Virus record (IMG/VR): IMGVR_UViG_3300046692_000069
Coordinates: 1-64,000 of that record
DNA: 64,000 nucleotides
Source of the DNA: a virus
Reading direction: 5' to 3' (one strand)
Position numbers and translations under genes: made by a program
Shown here: positions 1,761 to 27,766 of the stretch, in pieces
Numbering within the stretch: position 1 is the first letter of the stretch
Layout of the letters: every line of letters starts with the position of its first letter
Notes under the pieces: generated by a model
What the model was told of the DNA's origin: nothing
The model's input: only the letters and a program-made list of their open reading frames with translations
Database searches by the model: none

Positions 1761-2251
1761 GTGATTCGGATCTTATTGACGATCAATATGATGCGGCAAT
1801 GGCGCGTGGATCATTGCGCGATAACTTCAAATACCGCAAGCCATTCGGTGATCCACCGCAGGGGACGCTTGTTATGTGGCGCGCTAATGAAAAGCGCTAT
1901 AGCGTTACGGTTGATGCTGAGGCAGAACGGTACGGTACAAAGATTGAGATTGAGCTGACGTGGTATCGCATTATCAGCTACACGCCGAAGGGGGTCTGGA
2001 TATCTCTAAGCTGGTTTTTCGATAACCCAACTCCGGAGTCTTTGGCTGAGGGAGAAAAGCGCTTCATCAATTTCGACCACACGAAGCGATTTGCCAGCGC
2101 ATCCCCGAAGGATGCCATTGAGCAATTCATGCATCGCCGTCGCAAGCAGTTCCTGATATTGCAGCGGCAGGCTGACTTGGCGCTATCGTTGTTCTTGAGT
2201 GCGGAAAACAGGCTTGAACTTATGGATTCTGGAATAGAGGAGAAGTGGTGA
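1757..2251 (+). CDS. Hypothetical protein, 164 aa
   Basis: Start chosen at MSDSDLIDDQYDAAM, coupled by ATGA to the upstream tiny gene. The protein is soluble, with an acidic N-terminus, a beta-rich centre (residues about 30-85) and a C-terminal helical part ending EEKW. The family is not recognised. Confidence 0.75.
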   Translation: MSDSDLIDDQYDAAMARGSLRDNFKYRKPFGDPPQGTLVMWRANEKRYSVTVDAEAERYGTKIEIELTWYRIISYTPKGVWISLSWFFDNPTPESLAEGEKRFINFDHTKRFASASPKDAIEQFMHRRRKQFLILQRQADLALSLFLSAENRLELMDSGIEEKW

Positions 2252-2478
2252 TGAAAACAATCCGCACGGTAAGGCGTACAATCGAAGCCGAAGAAGATTT
2301 GCGGGTTGCCCCGGCATTCAGTCCCGGAGATCGCGTGCATATTTGCTACGGGGAATATGAGGGGCACGTCATTACCATCCGCGACACTCGCTATAATCAC
2401 GACTATGGGCGTTTTGAATATACTTACGACGTCGTCTTTCGGTCGTGGTTGCCCGAAGACATGTTGCGGCTTATCTGA
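2251..2478 (+). CDS. Small SH3/KOW-like hypothetical protein, 75 aa
   Basis: ATG at 2251 overlaps the previous TGA and follows GAGGAG. The segment FSPGDRVHICYGEYEGHVIT resembles the strand-turn pattern of KOW/SH3-like barrels that bind nucleic acid or other proteins. This is a pattern reading only. It is the last gene before a promoter. Confidence 0.68.
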   Translation: MKTIRTVRRTIEAEEDLRVAPAFSPGDRVHICYGEYEGHVITIRDTRYNHDYGRFEYTYDVVFRSWLPEDMLRLI

Positions 2479-2514
2479 AAATAATTAAAGATGGCTTAGG
2501 CTCTATTTTTTCGT

Positions 2515-2543
2515 TTGAAATGCAGCTGCGTTCTCCGTATAAG
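2515..2543 (+). promoter_or_regulatory. Sigma-70-like promoter with conserved leader
   Basis: TTGAAA (2515-2520), 17-base spacer, TATAAG (2538-2543), then GGATCATCAACCAAGGAG before the gene at 2569. The TCATCAAC-to-GGAG leader recurs at several other promoters in this window. Confidence 0.7.
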
Positions 2544-2568
2544 GGATCATCAACCAAGGAGAGACGAC

Positions 2569-3165
2569 ATGACAACCCGCAACGAACGTAATTCCAAGAT
2601 CGCAGCCGAAGTCCTCGCTAAGGGCGAAGCTAACAAGGCGACCATTAAGACCGGACTCGAAGCGGTTAGCCGCATGTACGACGACGTTCGCGGCGAATTC
2701 AACGACGCAACTAAGTACGCCCATTGCTGGGATGTCGCCATGGAACTGCACAATGTACGCGTCGCAAAGCATGCTGGCGTGTTCGGTGATTGGTGGCCGC
2801 GCGTGTTCGAGCTTGTCGAGCTTCGCGAAGCTATCAAGGCTATGCCGGTAATCGTTCGTGAAGCCAAGATGGAAACTGTTGAGCAGAAGATTGTCCGCAC
2901 ACTTAAGGAAGAGATTGAGCGTCGTCGCGACAATTACGACCGCGCAAAGCGGGCCGTTGACTTGCTGGTAGAGTTTCATCCTAGCGAAGATACTGGCCTC
3001 ATGACTGCATTCGTCAAGCGCCTAAATACCCACGTCGTATATTGCCAGAATTCATTTGGAACTTCTTGGCTTCGTATCGACTGGTATCTTGATGGGCGCA
3101 AGACGGCATTTCAGTTTATCATGGGCGCAATTCAGGAAATTCGTGAAGAGAGCGGAATCAAGTAG
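2569..3165 (+). CDS. Hypothetical helical protein, 198 aa
   Basis: The start MTTRNERNSKIAAEV follows AAGGAGAGACGAC and the promoter at 2515. Charged helices dominate the first 150 residues, and the C-terminus is aromatic and may be globular. It is among the largest proteins of this early stretch. No family is recognised. Confidence 0.77.
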   Translation: MTTRNERNSKIAAEVLAKGEANKATIKTGLEAVSRMYDDVRGEFNDATKYAHCWDVAMELHNVRVAKHAGVFGDWWPRVFELVELREAIKAMPVIVREAKMETVEQKIVRTLKEEIERRRDNYDRAKRAVDLLVEFHPSEDTGLMTAFVKRLNTHVVYCQNSFGTSWLRIDWYLDGRKTAFQFIMGAIQEIREESGIK

Positions 3166-3186
3166 TCAATAAATGGAGACGAAGTC

Positions 3187-3525
3187 ATGAACAAAACAAG
3201 ACGCAAGGAACTAAACTCCCTTCAGGATCGCATTGAAGCGGCCAAGATCAAGCTGCTAGCTGATATCGAGTCATTCACTGCAGAGCTTGGCGAGATCGAA
3301 ACGGCTATCGAAGAGTTGGCCGAGCAAGAGCAGGAAGCTTACGACAATCTCACTGAGGGGCTTCAAAATAGCGATAGGGGCGGCGCCATGCAGGACGCCG
3401 TTATCCTGATGGAAGAGGCTAAGGGCGTTCTAGAATCCGCTAGGTTCATTGTCGAAGATATCGACGGCTCTGATCTCGACGCAGCTTTTGAGTCGCTAGA
3501 TAACGCCAAGGGAATGGCTAAATAA
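3187..3525 (+). CDS. Coiled-coil hypothetical protein, 112 aa
   Basis: Residues 5-65 form a heptad-like Leu/Ile/Glu-rich coiled coil and the whole protein is acidic (many Glu and Asp). GGAGACGAAGTC precedes the ATG. It probably oligomerises, but its partner is unknown. A GCGAAT-loop hairpin follows the stop codon. Confidence 0.75.
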   Translation: MNKTRRKELNSLQDRIEAAKIKLLADIESFTAELGEIETAIEELAEQEQEAYDNLTEGLQNSDRGGAMQDAVILMEEAKGVLESARFIVEDIDGSDLDAAFESLDNAKGMAK

Positions 3526-3531
3526 TCAACA

Positions 3532-3551
3532 GGGTGGCGCGAATGCCACCC
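3532..3551 (+). other. Intergenic RNA hairpin with GCGAAT loop
   Basis: A perfect 7-bp stem (GGGTGGC / GCCACCC) closes a GCGAAT loop just after the stop at 3525 and before a TTG-started gene. There is no U-tract, so it is not a classic terminator. The same loop occurs at 16603-16618. Confidence 0.55.
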
Positions 3552-3570
3552 ATTAACGAAAGGAATCACC

Positions 3571-3804
3571 TTGTTCACAACATCAACCATCATCGCCGCC
3601 GCCTTCGCTTATGGGGCAATCTATCAGCAGACTCTTGACGGGTTGCGTCTTGAATTCAAGTACACCACGACGCCGAAGAAATGGCATTTGCCTATCTCCG
3701 TCTTCTTTGCCCTGATCTGGCCAGTAACTTGGATCATTGGCTACGCGGCTAATGCTATCACGCTTGTTCGTCGCAGCATGAAAACTCCGCGCATCATCGG
3801 TTAA
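3571..3804 (+). CDS. Small membrane protein, 77 aa
   Basis: A TTG start at 3571 is supported by AAAGGAATCACC. Hydrophobic segments lie at about residues 3-18 and 42-63 (FFALIWPVTWIIGYAANAI), with a basic tail RRSMKTPR. It is likely in the inner membrane with two passes. Function is unknown. Confidence 0.7.
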   Translation: MFTTSTIIAAAFAYGAIYQQTLDGLRLEFKYTTTPKKWHLPISVFFALIWPVTWIIGYAANAITLVRRSMKTPRIIG

Positions 3805-18248: not shown

Positions 18249-18260
18249 TGGGAGTTGACA

Positions 18261-20438
18261 GTGGTAGATAAGCAGATAGAAGATACGGAAAACCCATCCA
18301 TTGAAATTGCGGCGAAGACTCGTACGAAAAAACAACCCGCAACCGCACAGACGAAGGAGAAGACGGCTAATGTTAAATCGCGCCGCACAAGCCGCAAAGG
18401 AAGCGGCGGGAAGACAGGAGAGACGAAACGAACTGTTCGCAATGGATCGAGCGCTAGAGTGTCAGTGGAAGGGAAGGTTGCTGAGCAACCGATTCGGAAG
18501 CTCAACGCATTGGAGCGCGCTACTGCCTATGCGGATGCGGTACTGGCTGGCGACATCATTGCCGGCCCTCATGTGCGAAACGCTTGTCGTCGGTTCCATG
18601 ATGACCTTGCTCATGGCCGGGAACGCGGTATCTACTTTAACGTAGAGAAGGCCCAACGGGTATTTGACTTCTTTGAGCAGATGCTTAAGCTTTCTGACGG
18701 TCAATTTGAAGGAAAGCCGCTAATACTTGCGCCATCTCAGGCGTTTAAGATCGCCAATCTTTTCGGATTTATGCAGGTTCCAAAGGATGCCGATGGTAAT
18801 TTCGTGTGGGAACCGGGAAGGCGCGCGGCGCTAGGATTGTTTGAACGCAGGCGGTTCAGGCGCGCCTATATTGAAGAAGGCAAAGGCAACGGTAAGTCCC
18901 CGCTCGCTGGCGGTATTGGTCTTTATGGGCTAATGGGTGACGGCGAAGGAAGTTCGCAGATCTACGCGGCGGCCGCCAAGAAGGATCAGGCGAACATTCT
19001 ATTCCATGATGCCTGCAAGATGGTGCGGGCCGCACCATCACTGTTGAAGCGCATCAAGTTTTCCGGCTCTCCCGGCAAAGAGCACAATATGGCATTCCTC
19101 CGAAAGGGAGCGTTCTTTCGACCTATCTCGCGCGAGGCGGGGAAATCTGGCTCTGGGCCCCGCCCTCTTTTTGCGCTCTGCGATGAAGTGCACGAACATC
19201 CCGACCGCACCATTATGGAAATGCTAGAGCGTGGCTTTAAGTTTCGTGTATCACCCCTCCTGCTGATGATCACGAATAGCGGGACGGATAAGCAATCAAT
19301 TTGCTGGGAAGAGCATGAGTGGGCGTGCAAGGTTGCGGCGGGAACCAAGACGCCAGATGAGAATTTTACTTACACGGGAGAGCCAATTGACGACGTTACC
19401 TTCAGCTACGTTTGCGCTCTTGATATTGGGGATGATCCCCTCACGGATAGCTCTTGCTGGGTAAAAGCAAATCCAATGCTTAACATCATCCTTAGCGAGG
19501 AATACCTTGCGGGGGTTGTTAAGCAGGCTGTAGACATGCCAGGTAAGCGCAATGGCATTCTTCGTCTTCACTTTTGCGTCTGGACGGATTCCGTCGATGC
19601 GTGGATGGGTAAGGAGATCGTTGATAGGGCGATGGAGCATTTCGACCCTTACGAGATCCACAAGGAGAAGGAAGTTGCGGCCTCTATCGACTTGTCAGCT
19701 AGTCGAGATTTGACGGCAGCGGCTTTTGTCGTTGAAACTGGAGAGGTTGAAGTAGAGCGGCAACTGCAAGATGGCAGCGTAGAAATTAAGACGCTGCCGA
19801 CGTATGATGCATGGATAGAGGCATGGACTCCGAAAGACACAATGGTCAAGCGAGAGTCTGAGGACCATCAGCCGTACTTGTTTTGGTCGCAAACCAATCA
19901 CGTAGGATCTGAAAACCAGCCATATCTAAGGGCGCTGCCGGGTGAGCGAATTCGACATGATTATCTTGCTGGATTCTTTCAGGACGTTGATTCAAAATTT
20001 AAGATACTAGGTATCGCATATGACAGATACCAATACGACAAGTTCCGTGAGGAGTGTGATGACAGGGGTCTTGACTTGCGCCACGTCGCCCATCCGCAGG
20101 GCGGGAAGTTTAGGGCGAAGCCGGACCCAATCGAAGTTGAGGCTGCGAAGGCGAATAAAGAAGAGCCGCCGCTTGGCCTCTGGATGCCCGGAAGTATCAA
20201 GGCGCTAGAGGATGCGTTTACGGACGGACGAATTAGACTTAGATTTAGCCCGGTTCTTATGTCGGCGCTAATGGGTGCGACGCTTTCGCCTCCCGATGAC
20301 CATGGAAATAAGTGGTTCATCAAATCGAAAGCAACCGTCCGTATCGACCCGGCTGTGGCTTTGGCTATGGCGTTCGGGTTGATGCAGGACAAGCCACGGA
20401 AGAAGAAGCCTAAACAATTTCAGCTCATGGTTTTTTGA
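18261..20438 (+). CDS. terL: Large terminase subunit
   Basis: The DNA-packaging ATPase-nuclease of the HK97-like (Terminase_1) group, 725 residues. GTG 18261 is chosen because GGGAG lies six bases before it. Walker A GKGNGKS is at 207-213 and Walker B/Glu CDEVHE holds Asp308-Glu309. The RNase H-like nuclease half shows Asp477 in SIDLSASRDL and Asp588 in AYDRYQYD as metal ligands. It moves DNA into the prohead at the portal and cuts it. Unusual is a Lys/Arg/Thr-rich, probably disordered extension over about residues 15-75, which makes it longer than common homologues of about 550-600 residues. Confidence 0.95.
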   Translation: MVDKQIEDTENPSIEIAAKTRTKKQPATAQTKEKTANVKSRRTSRKGSGGKTGETKRTVRNGSSARVSVEGKVAEQPIRKLNALERATAYADAVLAGDIIAGPHVRNACRRFHDDLAHGRERGIYFNVEKAQRVFDFFEQMLKLSDGQFEGKPLILAPSQAFKIANLFGFMQVPKDADGNFVWEPGRRAALGLFERRRFRRAYIEEGKGNGKSPLAGGIGLYGLMGDGEGSSQIYAAAAKKDQANILFHDACKMVRAAPSLLKRIKFSGSPGKEHNMAFLRKGAFFRPISREAGKSGSGPRPLFALCDEVHEHPDRTIMEMLERGFKFRVSPLLLMITNSGTDKQSICWEEHEWACKVAAGTKTPDENFTYTGEPIDDVTFSYVCALDIGDDPLTDSSCWVKANPMLNIILSEEYLAGVVKQAVDMPGKRNGILRLHFCVWTDSVDAWMGKEIVDRAMEHFDPYEIHKEKEVAASIDLSASRDLTAAAFVVETGEVEVERQLQDGSVEIKTLPTYDAWIEAWTPKDTMVKRESEDHQPYLFWSQTNHVGSENQPYLRALPGERIRHDYLAGFFQDVDSKFKILGIAYDRYQYDKFREECDDRGLDLRHVAHPQGGKFRAKPDPIEVEAAKANKEEPPLGLWMPGSIKALEDAFTDGRIRLRFSPVLMSALMGATLSPPDDHGNKWFIKSKATVRIDPAVALAMAFGLMQDKPRKKKPKQFQLMVF

Positions 20439-20508: not shown

Positions 20509-20530
20509 GCCCGATAAGAAAGGGTTTTGA

Positions 20531-22501
20531 ATGGAAAACAGAATTGCGTTTTCCTTTCTTAGCGTTGATAAGGCCATTGATACAATCGGCAACGAACGTA
20601 TCATCAGCGGCATGGCAACGACCCCGACCCCTGATAGGGTTGGCGACATTGTTGAGCCGTTGGGCGTGATCTTCAAGAATCCTCTTCCGCTGCTTTTGTG
20701 GCATGATCATTCCGCCCCAGTCGGTACGGTCGTATTCGGTAAGCCTACAGAGAACGGTATTCCGTACACTGCTAAGCTTCCCGTAGTTCAGGAAGAAGGA
20801 AAATTAAAAGATCGCGTTGATGAGGCTTGGCAGAGCGTTAAGTTAGGTCTTGTACGGGCTGTATCGATTGGCTTCAGGCCGTTGAAATACAGCATCATCG
20901 ACGGCGGCGGTTTGCAGTTTACGTCAACCGAAGTTTTCGAGCTTTCGCTTGTAACCGTTCCGGCAAATGTTGAGGCGACGATTGACTTTGTTAAGTCTCT
21001 CGACAACGAAGCAAGAGCAAAGGCATCGGCCAAGAGCAAAACAAAGGCGGCGCCTGCCGTGGTCAATAAGACCGTAAAGGGTGGCGTTAGCATCATCAAT
21101 GTCAAAAAGGAGACAAGCTTGGATTTTCTCGAAACCATCAAGAATTTCAAGGACACCATCACCGCAAAGAACGCTCGTCTTGACGAACTGCTTGCCAAGT
21201 CCACCGAAGCAACGCTTTCCGTTGAAGAAGGCGAAGAGCACGACGGCCTGATTACGGAAATCGGCGAAATCGAAAAGCACATTGAGCGTCTCGAAGCCGG
21301 CGCCGCTCGCGCCAAGGCCGCTGCCATTCCCGTCAATGGCAATACCGCCAAGTCCGGCACTGAAGCCCGTCAGGGCAAGGTTGCTGCTACTGCCAAGGCT
21401 GGCCAGCTTGAAAAGGGCATCAGCTTTGCGCAATGGACCATCGCGATTGCAATGGGTAAGGGCAACATCAACGCTGCTCAGTCCATCGCCGCAAACCGCT
21501 TCCCGAACAACGAAGAGCTGAACGGCGCCATGAAGGCCGCTGTTTCGGCCGGCACCACGACCGACCCAACTTGGGCCGCTCCTCTGGTCGACACCTACCA
21601 GCGCTTTGCCGGTGACTTCGTTGAGTTCCTGCGTCCGGCCACCATCATCGGCAAGTTTGGTACGAACGGCATCCCGTCGCTCCGCGCCATTCCGTTCAAC
21701 GTCTCGATTGCTGGTCAGACCTCTGGCGGTTCCGCTCAGTGGGTTGGTGAAGGTCAGGCAAAGCCACTCACGAAGTTCGATTTCAATCTTACCAATCTCC
21801 GTTGGGCCAAGGTTGCGACGATTTCGGTTCTGACTGAAGAGCTGATCCGCTTCTCCAATCCGGCCGCTGAAGCGCTTGTTCGTGACTCGCTCCGTGATGC
21901 TATCGTGGCTCGCCTCGATATCGACTTTGTCGACCCCGCCAAGGCAGCCGTTACCGACGTGTCCCCGGCCTCGATCACCAACGGCGTTGTGCCGATTGCG
22001 TCTTCGGGTGTTGATGCCAATGCTGTCCGCGCAGACGTTAAGGCAATCTTCACGGCCTTCATCAATGCCGGCAAGTCGCCTACTCAGGGCGTCTGGATTA
22101 TGTCTGAAGTTACGGCCCTCTCGCTGTCGCTGATGCAGAATCCGCTTGGTCAGCCAGAGTTTGCCGGCGTCACCGTTACCGGTGGCACGTTCCACGGGCT
22201 CCCGGTCATTACGTCGCAGTACATCGGCAACGACATCGTTGTTCTGGCTGATGCGTCGGAAATCTACCTTGCCGACGACGGTCAGGTTGCGGTTGACGTT
22301 TCCCGTGAAGCCTCGCTTCAGATGGACTCGGCTCCGACCGGCAACTCCGGTACGCCGACCGCTGCGAACCTCGTTTCGCTGTGGCAGACCAACAGCGTGG
22401 CCATCCGTGCCGAGCGTTGGATCAACTGGCAGAAGCGCCGCGCATTCGCGGTTCAGGTTCTGTCCGGTGTCAACTGGGGCGCTGTCGCTATCGGCTCGTA
22501 A
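20531..22501 (+). CDS. Prohead protease-major capsid fusion (HK97 type)
   Basis: 656 residues. Residues 1-157 are a U35-type prohead protease (His58 in LLWHDH, Ser112 in VSIGF as likely catalytic residues). Residues 160-190 are a Lys/Ala linker, and about 197-290 a helical delta/scaffold part. About 300-656 is the HK97-fold major capsid protein. The protease would cut the scaffold part during maturation. A strong AAGGAG six bases before an in-frame TTG (codon 197, at 21119) suggests a second start giving capsid protein without protease. Codon use becomes more GC-rich and regular in the capsid part, as expected for an abundant product. Confidence 0.93.
   Translation: MENRIAFSFLSVDKAIDTIGNERIISGMATTPTPDRVGDIVEPLGVIFKNPLPLLLWHDHSAPVGTVVFGKPTENGIPYTAKLPVVQEEGKLKDRVDEAWQSVKLGLVRAVSIGFRPLKYSIIDGGGLQFTSTEVFELSLVTVPANVEATIDFVKSLDNEARAKASAKSKTKAAPAVVNKTVKGGVSIINVKKETSLDFLETIKNFKDTITAKNARLDELLAKSTEATLSVEEGEEHDGLITEIGEIEKHIERLEAGAARAKAAAIPVNGNTAKSGTEARQGKVAATAKAGQLEKGISFAQWTIAIAMGKGNINAAQSIAANRFPNNEELNGAMKAAVSAGTTTDPTWAAPLVDTYQRFAGDFVEFLRPATIIGKFGTNGIPSLRAIPFNVSIAGQTSGGSAQWVGEGQAKPLTKFDFNLTNLRWAKVATISVLTEELIRFSNPAAEALVRDSLRDAIVARLDIDFVDPAKAAVTDVSPASITNGVVPIASSGVDANAVRADVKAIFTAFINAGKSPTQGVWIMSEVTALSLSLMQNPLGQPEFAGVTVTGGTFHGLPVITSQYIGNDIVVLADASEIYLADDGQVAVDVSREASLQMDSAPTGNSGTPTAANLVSLWQTNSVAIRAERWINWQKRRAFAVQVLSGVNWGAVAIGS
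21107..21121 (+). promoter_or_regulatory. Internal ribosome site and TTG start inside the capsid fusion
   Basis: AAGGAG at 21107-21112, six bases, then TTG at 21119-21121 in frame with the fusion. Translation from here would yield a 460-residue protein beginning with the delta domain, the same layout as HK97 gp5. Confidence 0.55.
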
Positions 22502-22522: not shown

Positions 22523-22569
22523 TTGACTTAAAGGGCTGGGAGCTGTAATATGCTCTCAGCCCTTTTTTT
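22523..22569 (+). terminator. Strong terminator with an embedded promoter
   Basis: A 14-bp stem with one G-U pair (22530-22543 with 22552-22565) and an 8-base loop is followed by a T-run: an intrinsic terminator for the capsid gene. TTGACT (22523-22528), a 17-base spacer and TAATAT (22546-22551) form a near-consensus promoter whose -10 fills the loop. Confidence 0.85.
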
Positions 22570-22585
22570 ATTAACGGAGGTATGC

Positions 22586-24055
22586 TTGGCTAAGGTTATT
22601 ATTGACGGCGTTGAATACGCGCCCGTTTCCAGCGTGTCGGCGGCCAAGATTGGCATTGTGATAACTACGCATAATCGGCACGATGTACTTAAGCGTTCGC
22701 TAGAGCATCATCTCCAGCACCTTCCGACCGGCGCAGTTGTCTTCGTTGTTGACGACGGCTCCGCCGCTCCTGTGTCAGTTGACGACAGTCGAGTAACGGT
22801 CGTTCGCAACGAAAGGAGCATGGGAATCGTCTACTCTAAAAACAGGTCGTTGTCCCTACTCATGGATGCGGGATGCGATCACCTTTTTCTGTGGGATGAC
22901 GATGCGTACCCACTCACGAACGATTGGCATGTGCAATATGTCGAAAGCGGAGAGGCACATCTCGCCTATCAGTTCCTAGATCTAGCCGGCCCTAGAAAGC
23001 TAAAGGACATTGCCGTCATTCATCGCGATTCGAAGCATGTTGCCTATACGGGTCAGCGCGGAGTTATGCTCTATTACAAGCGCCACGCCATCGATAAAGT
23101 TGGTGGTTTTGATTCGATATACGGACGCGGGATGTATGAGCATTCCGATTTGGCGATGCGAATTTATCAGTCCGGCCTAAACTCTTGGGCTTTTGCTGAT
23201 GTCGTCGGCTCAAATGAGCTTATCCACTCGATGGATGAGCACGAAGAGGTGGAGCGTTCTGTTGCCATGGGTGATCGTCAAGCCCTTGTGGATCGAAACG
23301 TTAAGGTGCACAACGCGCGGCGGGATAATGGTTATTCAGGTTATGCTCCTTATGACGTGAAGCCCAACGTCGTATTGACGTCTTTTCTTACGTGTCATCC
23401 CGATCCGCAACGTGGCATCCGCATGGAAGCAAAGGCTTCGATGCTGTCGGAGTGGTCAAGCAGCATTAAGGGCGCCGCTGCCATTGTGTTGGCTGATGAG
23501 CTTGACGAAAATCCGCCCTACGCATCCAGAGTAAAGGTTGACTCTCTGGAGGGAAACGTATATTTCATTAGGTGGCTGCATGTGTACAATTGGCTCCGGA
23601 GCAATCCTAGCGTTGGCAAGGTGTTTGTCACCGATGGGACTGACGTTGTCATGCTTCGTGAGCCTTGGGAGCATATGACATCAGGTAGCCTATACGTCGG
23701 CTCAGAGGCCAAGACTCTCGATGACGCATGGATTACGTCTAATCACGCGGCATCGCATTTGAAGGCGTTCCTAGAGGCCAATAAGGGCAAGACAATGCTG
23801 AATGCCGGCATCGTTGGCGGCGACAGAGAAGATGTCATGGCGTTCGCGCACGATATCATCAAGGACTACTATTTCACCATATCGCGCCGGTTCTGGAAAA
23901 CGGAGCCGCAGGGCAATGAGGTTGGGGACATGGCGACGTTTAATTACGTGGCCTATACCAAGTGGGCCAATAAGATCATGACTGGTCCTCTAGTACATAC
24001 CGTGTTTAAGACTGAGGGCGTAGGCAAGGAATATGCTTGGTTTCGCCACAAGTAA
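22586..24055 (+). CDS. Two-domain glycosyltransferase (GT2 plus second GT-A-like domain)
   Basis: 489 residues, TTG start with ACGGAGGTATGC. Residues about 20-240 are a family-2 glycosyltransferase (IVITTHNRHDVLKRSLEH, then FVVDDGSAAP, then a LFLWDDDAYPL metal-binding DDD). Residues about 265-489 resemble a second nucleotide-sugar transferase fold (VFVTDGTDVVM and LNAGIVGGDRE). It sits between capsid and portal genes, right after a terminator-promoter module. It probably transfers sugars to a virion protein or to a surface molecule. Host lipopolysaccharide modification is the alternative. Confidence 0.82.
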   Translation: MAKVIIDGVEYAPVSSVSAAKIGIVITTHNRHDVLKRSLEHHLQHLPTGAVVFVVDDGSAAPVSVDDSRVTVVRNERSMGIVYSKNRSLSLLMDAGCDHLFLWDDDAYPLTNDWHVQYVESGEAHLAYQFLDLAGPRKLKDIAVIHRDSKHVAYTGQRGVMLYYKRHAIDKVGGFDSIYGRGMYEHSDLAMRIYQSGLNSWAFADVVGSNELIHSMDEHEEVERSVAMGDRQALVDRNVKVHNARRDNGYSGYAPYDVKPNVVLTSFLTCHPDPQRGIRMEAKASMLSEWSSSIKGAAAIVLADELDENPPYASRVKVDSLEGNVYFIRWLHVYNWLRSNPSVGKVFVTDGTDVVMLREPWEHMTSGSLYVGSEAKTLDDAWITSNHAASHLKAFLEANKGKTMLNAGIVGGDREDVMAFAHDIIKDYYFTISRRFWKTEPQGNEVGDMATFNYVAYTKWANKIMTGPLVHTVFKTEGVGKEYAWFRHK

Positions 24056-24067
24056 AAGGATGAAGAC

Positions 24068-24670
24068 ATGAATACATTATATGCAGTCGTCGCCCATCAT
24101 TCGCGCGAGAAACAAGCCCTAGAACTGTGTTGCGCTCTAGGCGCTGAGCTGTTTATGGACGGCGGCAACGGTGGCGCGCTGGCCAATCATCGGCGCGCTA
24201 TCCAGTGGGCCGCAAAGCAACGTGAGCGCGTTGTGATTCTTGAGGATGATGCGCAGCCGGTTATTGGTTTTAAGTTCAAGGTTGACGAATGGTTAGAATG
24301 CTATCCGCATAACCTTATCAGCTTTTATCTAGGAACTGGCCGCCCGCCCCAATTTCAACCGTTGATTAACGAATCGATATCGCTGGCTGACATAAGCGGC
24401 TCCAGCGTAATATATTTGCCGCAATTGTTGCACGGTGTTTGCTACTCCATCCCTCAAAGTTGGATAACTCACATCGCCGCGCAACTTCCAGAGCGTGGCG
24501 TTGCCGCTGATTACGCCATCGGCGACGCATGGCGCCGTGTTACTGGTGGCGTGGGCGTCGTTTATCCGATCAGGTCCCTTGTCGACCACGAAGACGGCCA
24601 AAGCGTGGAGCGACACCCTGATGGACAACCAAGAACAGAACGCCGCAAGGCTTGGCGGCTAGACAACTGA
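24068..24670 (+). CDS. Glycosyltransferase family 25-like protein
   Basis: 200 residues. The pattern ALANHRRAIQWAAKQRE followed by VVILEDDAQPV (about 58-69) is the acceptor-donor core of family 25 glycosyltransferases, known from lipooligosaccharide synthesis. The LEDDA acidic residues would bind metal and nucleotide-sugar. It lies 13 bases after the first glycosyltransferase, so the two probably act in one pathway, perhaps virion protein glycosylation. Target is inference. Confidence 0.78.
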   Translation: MNTLYAVVAHHSREKQALELCCALGAELFMDGGNGGALANHRRAIQWAAKQRERVVILEDDAQPVIGFKFKVDEWLECYPHNLISFYLGTGRPPQFQPLINESISLADISGSSVIYLPQLLHGVCYSIPQSWITHIAAQLPERGVAADYAIGDAWRRVTGGVGVVYPIRSLVDHEDGQSVERHPDGQPRTERRKAWRLDN

Positions 24671-25062: not shown

Positions 25063-26472
25063 ATGAGTGAAAGAAGCGGCTTTATTCGCCGCCTTAAGAG
25101 AATTACGTCTGGCTTGCTTTCCCCGCCTTCTTCGCGCGGTGGATGGCTTGGCCCCATACTGGAATCTTATCCCGGTGCGTGGCAGCAGAACGTTGAGATT
25201 TCCAACGACACACTAACGTCTGTTGGCGCTGTATTCGCGTGCGTTACGCTTATCGCTTCGGACATTTCAAAGCTTCGAATGAAGCTGACAAAATTCACGA
25301 ACGGCGCGTGGGTGGAGGCCACTAATACGGCCTACTCGCCAATGCTGAAGCGGCCAAATAAAAACCAGAATAGAATCCAATTCCTTGAGGCTTGGATTTT
25401 GTCGAAGTTGCTTCACGGCAATACCTATGTACTAAAGGTGCGGGATGCCACGGGTCACGTTCGCGGCCTAAAGGTTCTTGATCCGCGTCTAGTGCAGCCG
25501 CTGGTTTCGCCAGACGGAAGCGTGTTCTATAGCATCAACACGGACAATTTTAACGGCATTCAAGATCCGCCAGAAGCTATTCCGGCTAGCGAGATCATTC
25601 ATGATCGTTACAATTGCCTGTTCCATCCACTCGTTGGGATTTCGCCGCTCTATTCGGCTGGCCTAGCGGCTCGTCAGGCATGGCATATCCAGAATAGCCA
25701 AACCCTGTTGTTTGCCAACGGCGTTAAGGCCCCCGGCATCCTTACGGCTCCGGGCGCCATCAGCGACGAAATCGCTGAGCGACTCAAGACTGATTGGGAA
25801 GCCAAATATGCTGGCTCCAAGGGTATTGGCAAAGTCGCCGTGCTTGGCGATGGACTAGAATTCCAAGCGATGTCTACAAGCGCCGTCGATGCCGAGCTTA
25901 TCAAACAGCTTGATTGGACCGGTATTTCCATCTGTTCTGCCTTCCACGTCCCGCCATTTATGATTGGCATTGGTTCGGCCCCGCCGTATACCGACATGGC
26001 GTCGGTTAACCTTCAGTACTATTCGCAGGCTCTACAGCACCTCATTGAGGCCGTCGAGCTTTGTGTTGATGAAGGCGTTGGCTTGGCGGATGACATGGGT
26101 GTCGAGCTTGACACGAATGGCTTGCTTCGCATGGATGCCAAGACTCAGGCTGAAACGATCACAACTTACACCAAGTCCGGCATCATGAAGCTGAATGAGG
26201 CGCGTCGGAAGATTGATCTTCCTGATATGGATGGCGGCGATTCCGTTTACCTCCAGCAACAGAACTTCAGTCTTGAGGCGCTGAATAAGCGCGACAGCTC
26301 AGATGATCCGTTCAAGACTGGCGGCAGCTCGAAAACCACACAGCCGTCGTCGTCGCAGACTACGGACCCTCAAAAGTCTATCCGTAAGTCAATTGAGCGC
26401 AGCGAGGATGATGCGATTGAGTATCTGTCCATTCTCGTAAACAAGATGGAAGGATTCGAACTTGAATATTGA
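25063..26472 (+). CDS. Portal protein (HK97 family)
   Basis: 469 residues, ATG 25063 with GAGGAGCAAAAC. An in-frame TTG at 24985 would cross the terminator hairpin and is rejected. The pattern VGAVFACVTLIASDISKL, a LLHGNTYVLKV segment and WTGISICSAFHVPPFMIG are characteristic of the dodecameric HK97-type portal, the vertex through which DNA enters and leaves. The C-terminal 60 residues are Ser/Thr/Gln-rich and disordered. Its place after the capsid gene is unusual, since portal normally precedes protease and capsid. Confidence 0.93.
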   Translation: MSERSGFIRRLKRITSGLLSPPSSRGGWLGPILESYPGAWQQNVEISNDTLTSVGAVFACVTLIASDISKLRMKLTKFTNGAWVEATNTAYSPMLKRPNKNQNRIQFLEAWILSKLLHGNTYVLKVRDATGHVRGLKVLDPRLVQPLVSPDGSVFYSINTDNFNGIQDPPEAIPASEIIHDRYNCLFHPLVGISPLYSAGLAARQAWHIQNSQTLLFANGVKAPGILTAPGAISDEIAERLKTDWEAKYAGSKGIGKVAVLGDGLEFQAMSTSAVDAELIKQLDWTGISICSAFHVPPFMIGIGSAPPYTDMASVNLQYYSQALQHLIEAVELCVDEGVGLADDMGVELDTNGLLRMDAKTQAETITTYTKSGIMKLNEARRKIDLPDMDGGDSVYLQQQNFSLEALNKRDSSDDPFKTGGSSKTTQPSSSQTTDPQKSIRKSIERSEDDAIEYLSILVNKMEGFELEY

Positions 26473-27766
26473 AACCATTAAAAAGCTTGAAGATGTATTC
26501 TCCAAGCTGACAAATCACGTCAAGGCAGCGTTGCAGCCAATGGCGCAAGAGCTTCGTGATATGAAGGCGTCGATTGCAAGCGTCGTCAAGCATCAAGAAG
26601 ATTTCAAGGCTGAAATCAAGTCGTCTGACTCGATTTTTCGCGATGAGATCACGGCCATTGAATTGGTTGCTCATGATGCCACGGCGACAGCGAAAGACGC
26701 CAAGGAAACTGCAGAAGCAGCCGTCCAGCTTTGGCATGATCACGAATCCGGATGGAATAAAAAGTTCGATAGTGCCGTGCAGCATTATGCCGATACGTCC
26801 AGCGGCGTGATCAAGGATGTATTGCCTCATGAGCTTGGCCACGAAGTTAAGCTGATCGGTGGGAAGTCGTTTGTTATTAAGAACGGCGTCGATGGCAAAG
26901 ACGGGGAAAAAGGCGCGGATGGCATCAACGGAGATAACGGCGTCGATGGCAAAGATGGCAAAGATGGCGACAATGGCGTCGGAATCGTAGCTATTGACCT
27001 TGCTCAGGCCGATGACGACGTCACGATTGCGGGCCTTCTTTCGAATGGCGAGACATTCTCTTTGCCTTTCCGGATTAAGAGCGGTATTGACGGCGAAGAT
27101 GGCCGTGACGGTATCGACGGCATTCGCGGCATTGATGGGGTTAATGGCGTCGACGGATCCGATGGCAAAGACGGGCGGGATGGCATCGACGGCAAGGACG
27201 GACGCGATGGCGTGGATGGCAAGGATGGATCTGACGTTGTTGATGGCTTCATCGACAGAGACAACAATCTTGTCCTAACTTTCGCCAACGGCAAGGCAAA
27301 AACCCTTGGTGTGGTGGTAGGTCGCGGCGGCGAAAAAGGCAAAGATGGCCATAACGGCGCCGATGGCTTCGACGGCAAGGACGGCCGCGACGGCGCGGAC
27401 GGCAAGGATGGCTTTGGCCTTGATGATCTGAGCATGGAGCACGATGGCGAGCGCGGATTCTCATTCGTATTTCGCTCTGGCGATCTTGAGAGGCGCTTTG
27501 ATTTCCGCCTTCAGGTTCCTATCTATCGCGGTGTGTACGGCGCTGGTAAGGCGTACGAGTCTGGAGACATGGTTTCTCACTTCGGCGCCGTATACCACTT
27601 CAATGGTGGCGACAAGGCTCCGGGAATTGATACATCTTGGACGCTTGCGGTTGCCAATGGCCAACGCGGCAAGACTGGCGCCAAGGGTGATAATGGCAAA
27701 CCGGGTAACGACGGCCGCGACGGTCGCGACCTTACCAAAATTATGCCAGATGGGAGTAAGTATTAA
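26462..27766 (+). CDS. Collagen-like fibre protein with C-terminal carbohydrate-binding module
   Basis: 434 residues, TTG start with AAGGA overlapping the portal end by 11 bases. Residues 1-125 are helical and coiled-coil. About 140-175, 205-265 and 285-320 are Gly-X-Y collagen-like repeats rich in GKDG and GRDG, which form triple helices. About 355-395 (YRGVYGAGKAYESGDMV, later WTLAVANGQ) resembles a family 5/12 carbohydrate-binding module, and a last Gly-X-Y run ends the protein. It is probably a trimeric head or neck fibre that binds sugars. A tail-fibre role is possible, but the position beside the portal favours the head. Confidence 0.82.
   Translation: MNIETIKKLEDVFSKLTNHVKAALQPMAQELRDMKASIASVVKHQEDFKAEIKSSDSIFRDEITAIELVAHDATATAKDAKETAEAAVQLWHDHESGWNKKFDSAVQHYADTSSGVIKDVLPHELGHEVKLIGGKSFVIKNGVDGKDGEKGADGINGDNGVDGKDGKDGDNGVGIVAIDLAQADDDVTIAGLLSNGETFSLPFRIKSGIDGEDGRDGIDGIRGIDGVNGVDGSDGKDGRDGIDGKDGRDGVDGKDGSDVVDGFIDRDNNLVLTFANGKAKTLGVVVGRGGEKGKDGHNGADGFDGKDGRDGADGKDGFGLDDLSMEHDGERGFSFVFRSGDLERRFDFRLQVPIYRGVYGAGKAYESGDMVSHFGAVYHFNGGDKAPGIDTSWTLAVANGQRGKTGAKGDNGKPGNDGRDGRDLTKIMPDGSKY

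Follow-up and report, generated by a model that had tools for sequence, protein, structure and literature searches.

A conserved start site inside a phage protease-capsid fusion gene suggests a nested capsid gene

Genes in which a prohead protease is fused to a major capsid protein pose a stoichiometry problem, as the shell needs several capsid proteins per protease. One such gene lies at positions 20531 to 22501 of a 64,000-nucleotide stretch of viral DNA (hereafter the window), which is part of the 70,357-base IMG/VR record IMGVR_UViG_3300046692_000069. How might this single gene supply much capsid protein and little protease? A preliminary description, made from the sequence alone, had pointed to AAGGAG six bases before an in-frame TTG at 21119 (codon 197), and our analysis agrees with it on both the coordinates and the spacer (ACAAGC, 6 nucleotides). 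We consider it highly probable that the gene is in fact two in-frame nested genes, the inner start making a plain capsid precursor and the fusion carrying the protease. A conserved internal start of this kind would solve the stoichiometry problem without cleavage.

An internal start at the protease-capsid junction

In the window gene, TTG197 is the only internal in-frame ATG, GTG or TTG with a Shine-Dalgarno (SD) match longer than 4 nucleotides, one other in-frame candidate (GTG177) having a match of 4 nucleotides. It is also the only TTG among the 32 leucine codons of the capsid part, and in the structural model it falls exactly at the border of the disordered linker and the first delta helix. 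Initiation here was proposed to give a 460-residue protein that begins with the delta part, as in HK97 gp5, and the profile comparisons bear this out. The 460-residue product matches TIGR01554 at residues 9-398, from profile position 3, and its delta part aligns with residues 4-72 of the HK97-type capsid protein 9gyi_B (profile search, E-value 1.2e-8), which is the capsid protein of a capsid-forming phage-inducible chromosomal island and not of HK97.

Relatives were gathered from viral contigs, genome contigs and phage records, giving 191 usable loci. Protease and capsid were in one frame at 147 of them and in separate open reading frames (ORFs) at 44, and removal of near copies left 77 fused and 37 split nonredundant members. 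The junction was located with a profile starting at residue 198 and therefore was not defined by the start codon. ATG, GTG or TTG was present at the junction in 77 of the 77 fused relatives, and in 73 it was accompanied by an SD (at least 4 nucleotides matched, spacing of 4-11 nucleotides; 66 ATG, 4 GTG, 3 TTG), so that a conserved SD and start codon lie inside the ORF, as in a nested gene. Along the rest of the gene, the same rule picked out a mean of 4.5% and a maximum of 28.6% of the fused relatives. The preliminary description had named disappearance of the site from close relatives whose fusion is intact as a result that would count against it. This was looked for and not seen: the near relatives L001 and L020 retain AAGGAG, six nucleotides and TTG, and in other relatives an ATG or GTG is present together with an SD. 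The non-ATG starts at the junction are leucine (TTG) or valine (GTG) codons, and in the three TTG cases TTG makes up 2-12% of the gene's other leucine codons.

The conservation is seen at the nucleotide level. When synonymous codons were shuffled within each gene with the protein sequence kept, an SD of at least 5 nucleotides was expected in 16.9 +/- 3.0 members (maximum 26, 200 shuffles) and observed in 53, and one of at least 4 nucleotides was expected in 54.7 +/- 2.4 (maximum 61) and observed in 73. The motif encodes a KE/QEG-type peptide in 39 members and a KG-type peptide in 31; as it lies in differing codon phases, it is the nucleotide (RNA) motif that is conserved and not the peptide. 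A conserved methionine about 24 codons into the delta domain served as a control. It is ATG in 86% and has a nearby SD of at least 4 nucleotides in at most 28.6%, and methionine conservation alone therefore does not bring an SD.

The split relatives point the same way. In the 37 nonredundant members of this type (Moraxella phage Mcat7 and Stenotrophomonas phage SOVA965 are two of them), it is at this same junction that the protease ORF comes to an end and a separate capsid gene begins. The capsid has its own SD by the same rule in 34 of the 37, and the two ORFs share a 4-nucleotide ATGA-type overlap in 14 of the 34 split relatives measured. As their capsids start at this codon, such a capsid protein works in many relatives. 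A quick tree of the capsid part, from which counts are approximate, requires 13 or more changes between the fused and the split state, and well-supported branches force no fewer than 8 of them. By this comparison of sequences, the junction behaves as a gene border even without a stop codon. If fused genes are indeed two genes sharing a frame, fusion and fission could alternate freely without altering the capsid product. As a separate observation, the capsid gene of SOVA965 (L033:2178-3583) is itself broken into two overlapping ORFs, 2178-3059 and 3038-3583, by either a sequencing error or a frameshift.

Codon usage and predicted mRNA structure also change at the junction. Codon choice had been described as more regular in the capsid part, and in the window gene the effective number of codons (Nc; lower values mean stronger bias) falls from 49.6 to 37.7. 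Family-wide, mean Nc falls from 45.5 to 39.8 across the junction (p = 3e-11), the capsid part being lower in 66 of the 77 fused genes, and relative codon adaptiveness steps up from 0.46-0.62 upstream to 0.64-0.80 downstream. Predicted mRNA folding is on average weakest exactly at the inner start, where the mean energy is -9.0 kcal/mol; the other 60-nucleotide segments within 180 nucleotides range from -9.8 to -18.3 kcal/mol. First starts are more structured than inner starts in the predicted mRNA (p = 9e-7). Linker amino-acid composition accounts for much of the dip, and compared with synonymous shuffles the effect at the inner start is small (mean z 0.28, p = 0.008). In the window gene, a predicted hairpin over the first ATG (Table 1) could reduce the output of the fusion. 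The step in codon bias and the greater openness of the inner start would both fit an excess of capsid over fusion, without measuring the ratio. Taken together, the synonymous shuffles, the codon-bias step, the mRNA dip and the split relatives lend strong support to real initiation at the inner start, as far as sequence comparison can speak to it.

Several observations weigh against this reading. Four of the 77 fused relatives miss the SD rule: L040 has AGGAG and ATG and falls outside the rule by one codon of offset only, L010 offers a weak run of purines, and in L023 and L039 the ATG lacks a good SD. The 77 are also not fully independent, owing to their relatedness, and the inner start of the window gene is a TTG, which is usually weaker than ATG. 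In the window gene the SD energies are -4.5 kcal/mol at the first start and -8.7 kcal/mol at the inner start, but across the family they are alike (-7.2 vs -7.6 kcal/mol, p = 0.58), the first-start value being skewed to the strong side by the choice of the best candidate. SD strength alone therefore does not show an excess of capsid, and it was dropped as proof of much capsid and little protease. Of the earlier proposal that one gene supplies the two in such amounts, the inner initiation is supported by the comparison, while the abundance ratio can only be inferred, the SD not being generally stronger at the inner start.

In the model that we favor, ribosomes starting at ATG 20531 would make the protease-linker-delta-HK97 fusion, and ribosomes binding AAGGAG at 21107-21112 and starting at TTG 21119 would make the 460-residue capsid precursor with its N-terminal delta helices. 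The plain precursor would form the bulk of the shell and the fusion a minority. The fusion probably joins the assembling shell by way of its capsid domain, bringing the protease inside the prohead, where it would remove the delta domains and itself. The start sites, the domain borders and the nucleotide-level conservation of the inner start can be read from the sequence; from these we infer initiation at TTG, the product ratio and protease delivery by co-assembly.

Alternative explanations

A different way to obtain a free capsid protein would be a polyprotein, in which the full-length fusion is the only translation product and the protease frees itself from the capsid part by cleavage, with no internal start used. 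H58 and S112 of the protease domain, which we take from family knowledge to be the catalytic pair, are invariant across 51 aligned sequences, and the linker is predicted to be disordered and so could be cut. The published proposal for PAJU2, a member of the fused family, is self-cleavage of this kind (PMC8306868). However, the linker holds no conserved peptide motif, and a polyprotein would yield protease and capsid at 1:1, unlike HK97, whose proheads contain about 60 proteases per 415 capsid proteins; about 90 proteases per prohead are given for D3 (PMC12749128). Moreover, the junction has a start codon, an SD, a codon-bias step and open mRNA, none of which cleavage requires. We therefore regard cleavage as the sole source of capsid protein as improbable, although cleavage of the fusion alongside internal initiation is plausible and both could operate.

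Another possibility is a promoter inside the gene, making a short capsid mRNA that is served by the inner SD. A separate internal promoter makes a short mRNA in this manner for herpesvirus UL26.5. One sigma-70-like site (TTGATA-16-TATCAT at 20577-20604) does lie upstream of the inner start within the window gene, and such a promoter would need the inner start too. Promoter-like sites in the region are nevertheless at chance level (6 found, 4.9 expected), which makes this explanation very unlikely. Least likely of all, because of the synonymous-site evidence, is that the SD and start codon are a functionless relic of a recent gene fusion. In its favor, some relatives are split and have the same start, and fusion and fission are frequent. 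Against it, fused lineages at about 40-60% identity retain the SD beyond synonymous shuffling (53 vs 16.9), and SD and start persist in a clade of 15 rows that are all fused as well as in the fused members grouped around the window gene.

Known systems and other fusion types

Protease-capsid fusion, which is rare, is itself already known and has been described for PAJU2, JLK-2012, MD8, and Paracoccus and Rhodobacter phages (PMC8306868, PMC6536676, PMC8508860). PAJU2 and Marienburgvirus JLK-2012 belong to the same fused family as the window protein (PHROG_617, residues 6-649), with PAJU2 at 49% identity. Rhizobium phage RHph_X2_26 is, like PAJU2, a cultured member of the family. As for an internal start in protease-capsid fusions, no description was found in the searchable portions of open-access full texts, subscription papers, including the PAJU2 paper, lying outside that search.

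In HK97, gp4 (protease) and gp5 (capsid with delta) share the protease clan, the delta domain and the capsid fold of the window fusion, and the inner start lies where capsid proteins of the HK97 type have their N-terminus. HK97 has two separate genes, whereas the window has one fused gene with an internal start. The lambda gene pair C/Nu3 has an in-frame nested start, with a long product that has the protease and a short one without it. There, however, the short product is the scaffold, the capsid protein comes from a separate gene and the protease is of another family, whereas in the window the short product would be the capsid protein itself with its own scaffold domain, which sets it apart from the C/Nu3 type. 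Phage endolysins can likewise be made as two polypeptides from one gene, with a 1:5 subunit stoichiometry in the case studied, but they are lysis enzymes and take no part in capsid assembly (PMC9430671). In-frame nested genes are thus an established arrangement; what appears to be new is a major capsid protein as the product nested within a protease fusion.

The same arrangement was found in other fusions. In the MD8 type (L197:2372-4453, L198-L277), which joins a ClpP/S49-like protease to a Mu-like capsid, an SD and ATG follow the protease domain, at residue 220, in all 15 nonredundant relatives. Rhodobacter phage RcBaka gp10 (L278:1454-3496) has a single internal SD-start, AAGGA-6-ATG214, at the protease/scaffold border. 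As these types have other protease and/or capsid families, the arrangement probably arose independently. We lean towards the view that phage protease-capsid fusions as a general rule contain a nested start, a solution arrived at in three or more types that differ in their protease and capsid families, and that "fused" genes are two genes sharing a frame; as the MD8 type is one related set and RcBaka a single case, this generality is likely rather than certain. A conserved internal start would also correct the annotation of the major capsid protein in many phages and prophages, whose N-terminus is now placed about 200 residues too far upstream. With fused members and split ones available for comparison, the family offers a natural test bed for protease delivery into the prohead.

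Gene layout and neighboring genes

The preliminary order of protease, linker, delta-like helices and HK97 fold (Table 1) was borne out by profile matches and by an AlphaFold2 model. The full-length protein matches the fused major head protein family PHROG_617 over residues 6-649 (profile 12-626 of 626, E-value 1.8e-153). Its Peptidase_S78 match (PF04586, residues 53-155, E-value 6.7e-6) reaches 26.8 bits against a gathering cut-off of 21, and the HK97-type capsid match (TIGR01554, residues 205-594) reaches 67.3 bits against a cut-off of 27.5. Scores for the HK97 prohead protease equivalog TIGR01543 (41.4 bits, curated cut-off 59) and for the prohead protease/capsid fusion NF045541 of NCBIfam (32 bits, cut-off 525) fall below threshold. 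Judged by these scores, the window protease is a diverged clan member outside the TIGR01543 equivalog, and NF045541 is a different fusion family.

The AlphaFold2 model, built on the 51-sequence alignment without rows from phage records, predicts a compact protease, a disordered linker (residues 145-195, predicted local distance difference test below 50), two long helices and an HK97 fold. The two helices would supply the N-terminal helical delta (scaffold) domain of HK97-type capsid proteins. The modelled capsid fold compares with HK97 prohead I at Z 16.1 and a root-mean-square deviation of 3.5 over 254 residues. The VIA-align fold matches listed span residues 293-648, the protease domain being barely probed by fold.

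Table 1. Features of the protease-capsid fusion gene and its 3' flank (window positions)
Feature	Position	Strand	Details
Full-length protease-capsid fusion gene	20531..22501	+	open ORF, 656 residues, PHROG_617
Predicted RNA hairpin over first ATG (20531)	20529..20558	+	-15.4 kcal/mol (65-nucleotide stretch) vs -8.0 at inner start; z only -1.3
Prohead protease domain (Peptidase_S78)	20540..20962	+	residues about 4-144
Disordered linker	20963..21118	+	residues 145-196; length varies among relatives
Internal SD, AAGGAG	21107..21112	+	duplex energy -8.7 kcal/mol
Internal start codon TTG	21119..21121	+	codon 197
Putative nested capsid gene	21119..22501	+	460-residue product
Delta-like scaffold helices	21125..21322	+	residues 199-226, 231-264
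HK97-fold capsid domain	21407..22480	+	residues about 293-650
Intrinsic-terminator-like strong hairpin	22530..22565	+	14 pairs, then T run; directly 3' of fusion gene

The fusion gene is flanked on one side by the large terminase gene (18255-20438) and on the other by two glycosyltransferase genes, which are followed by the portal gene. The glycosyltransferase genes (PHROG_1579 and PHROG_854, window 22550-24670) thus lie between capsid and portal, right behind the terminator-like hairpin. Further downstream, the last part of the portal ORF is overlapped, in a different frame, by an ORF with collagen repeats (window 26462-27766). Residues 319-401 of this second ORF match the C-terminus (769-855) of the portal family PHROG_2271, and the portal tail therefore seems to be a separate collagen-bearing ORF here.
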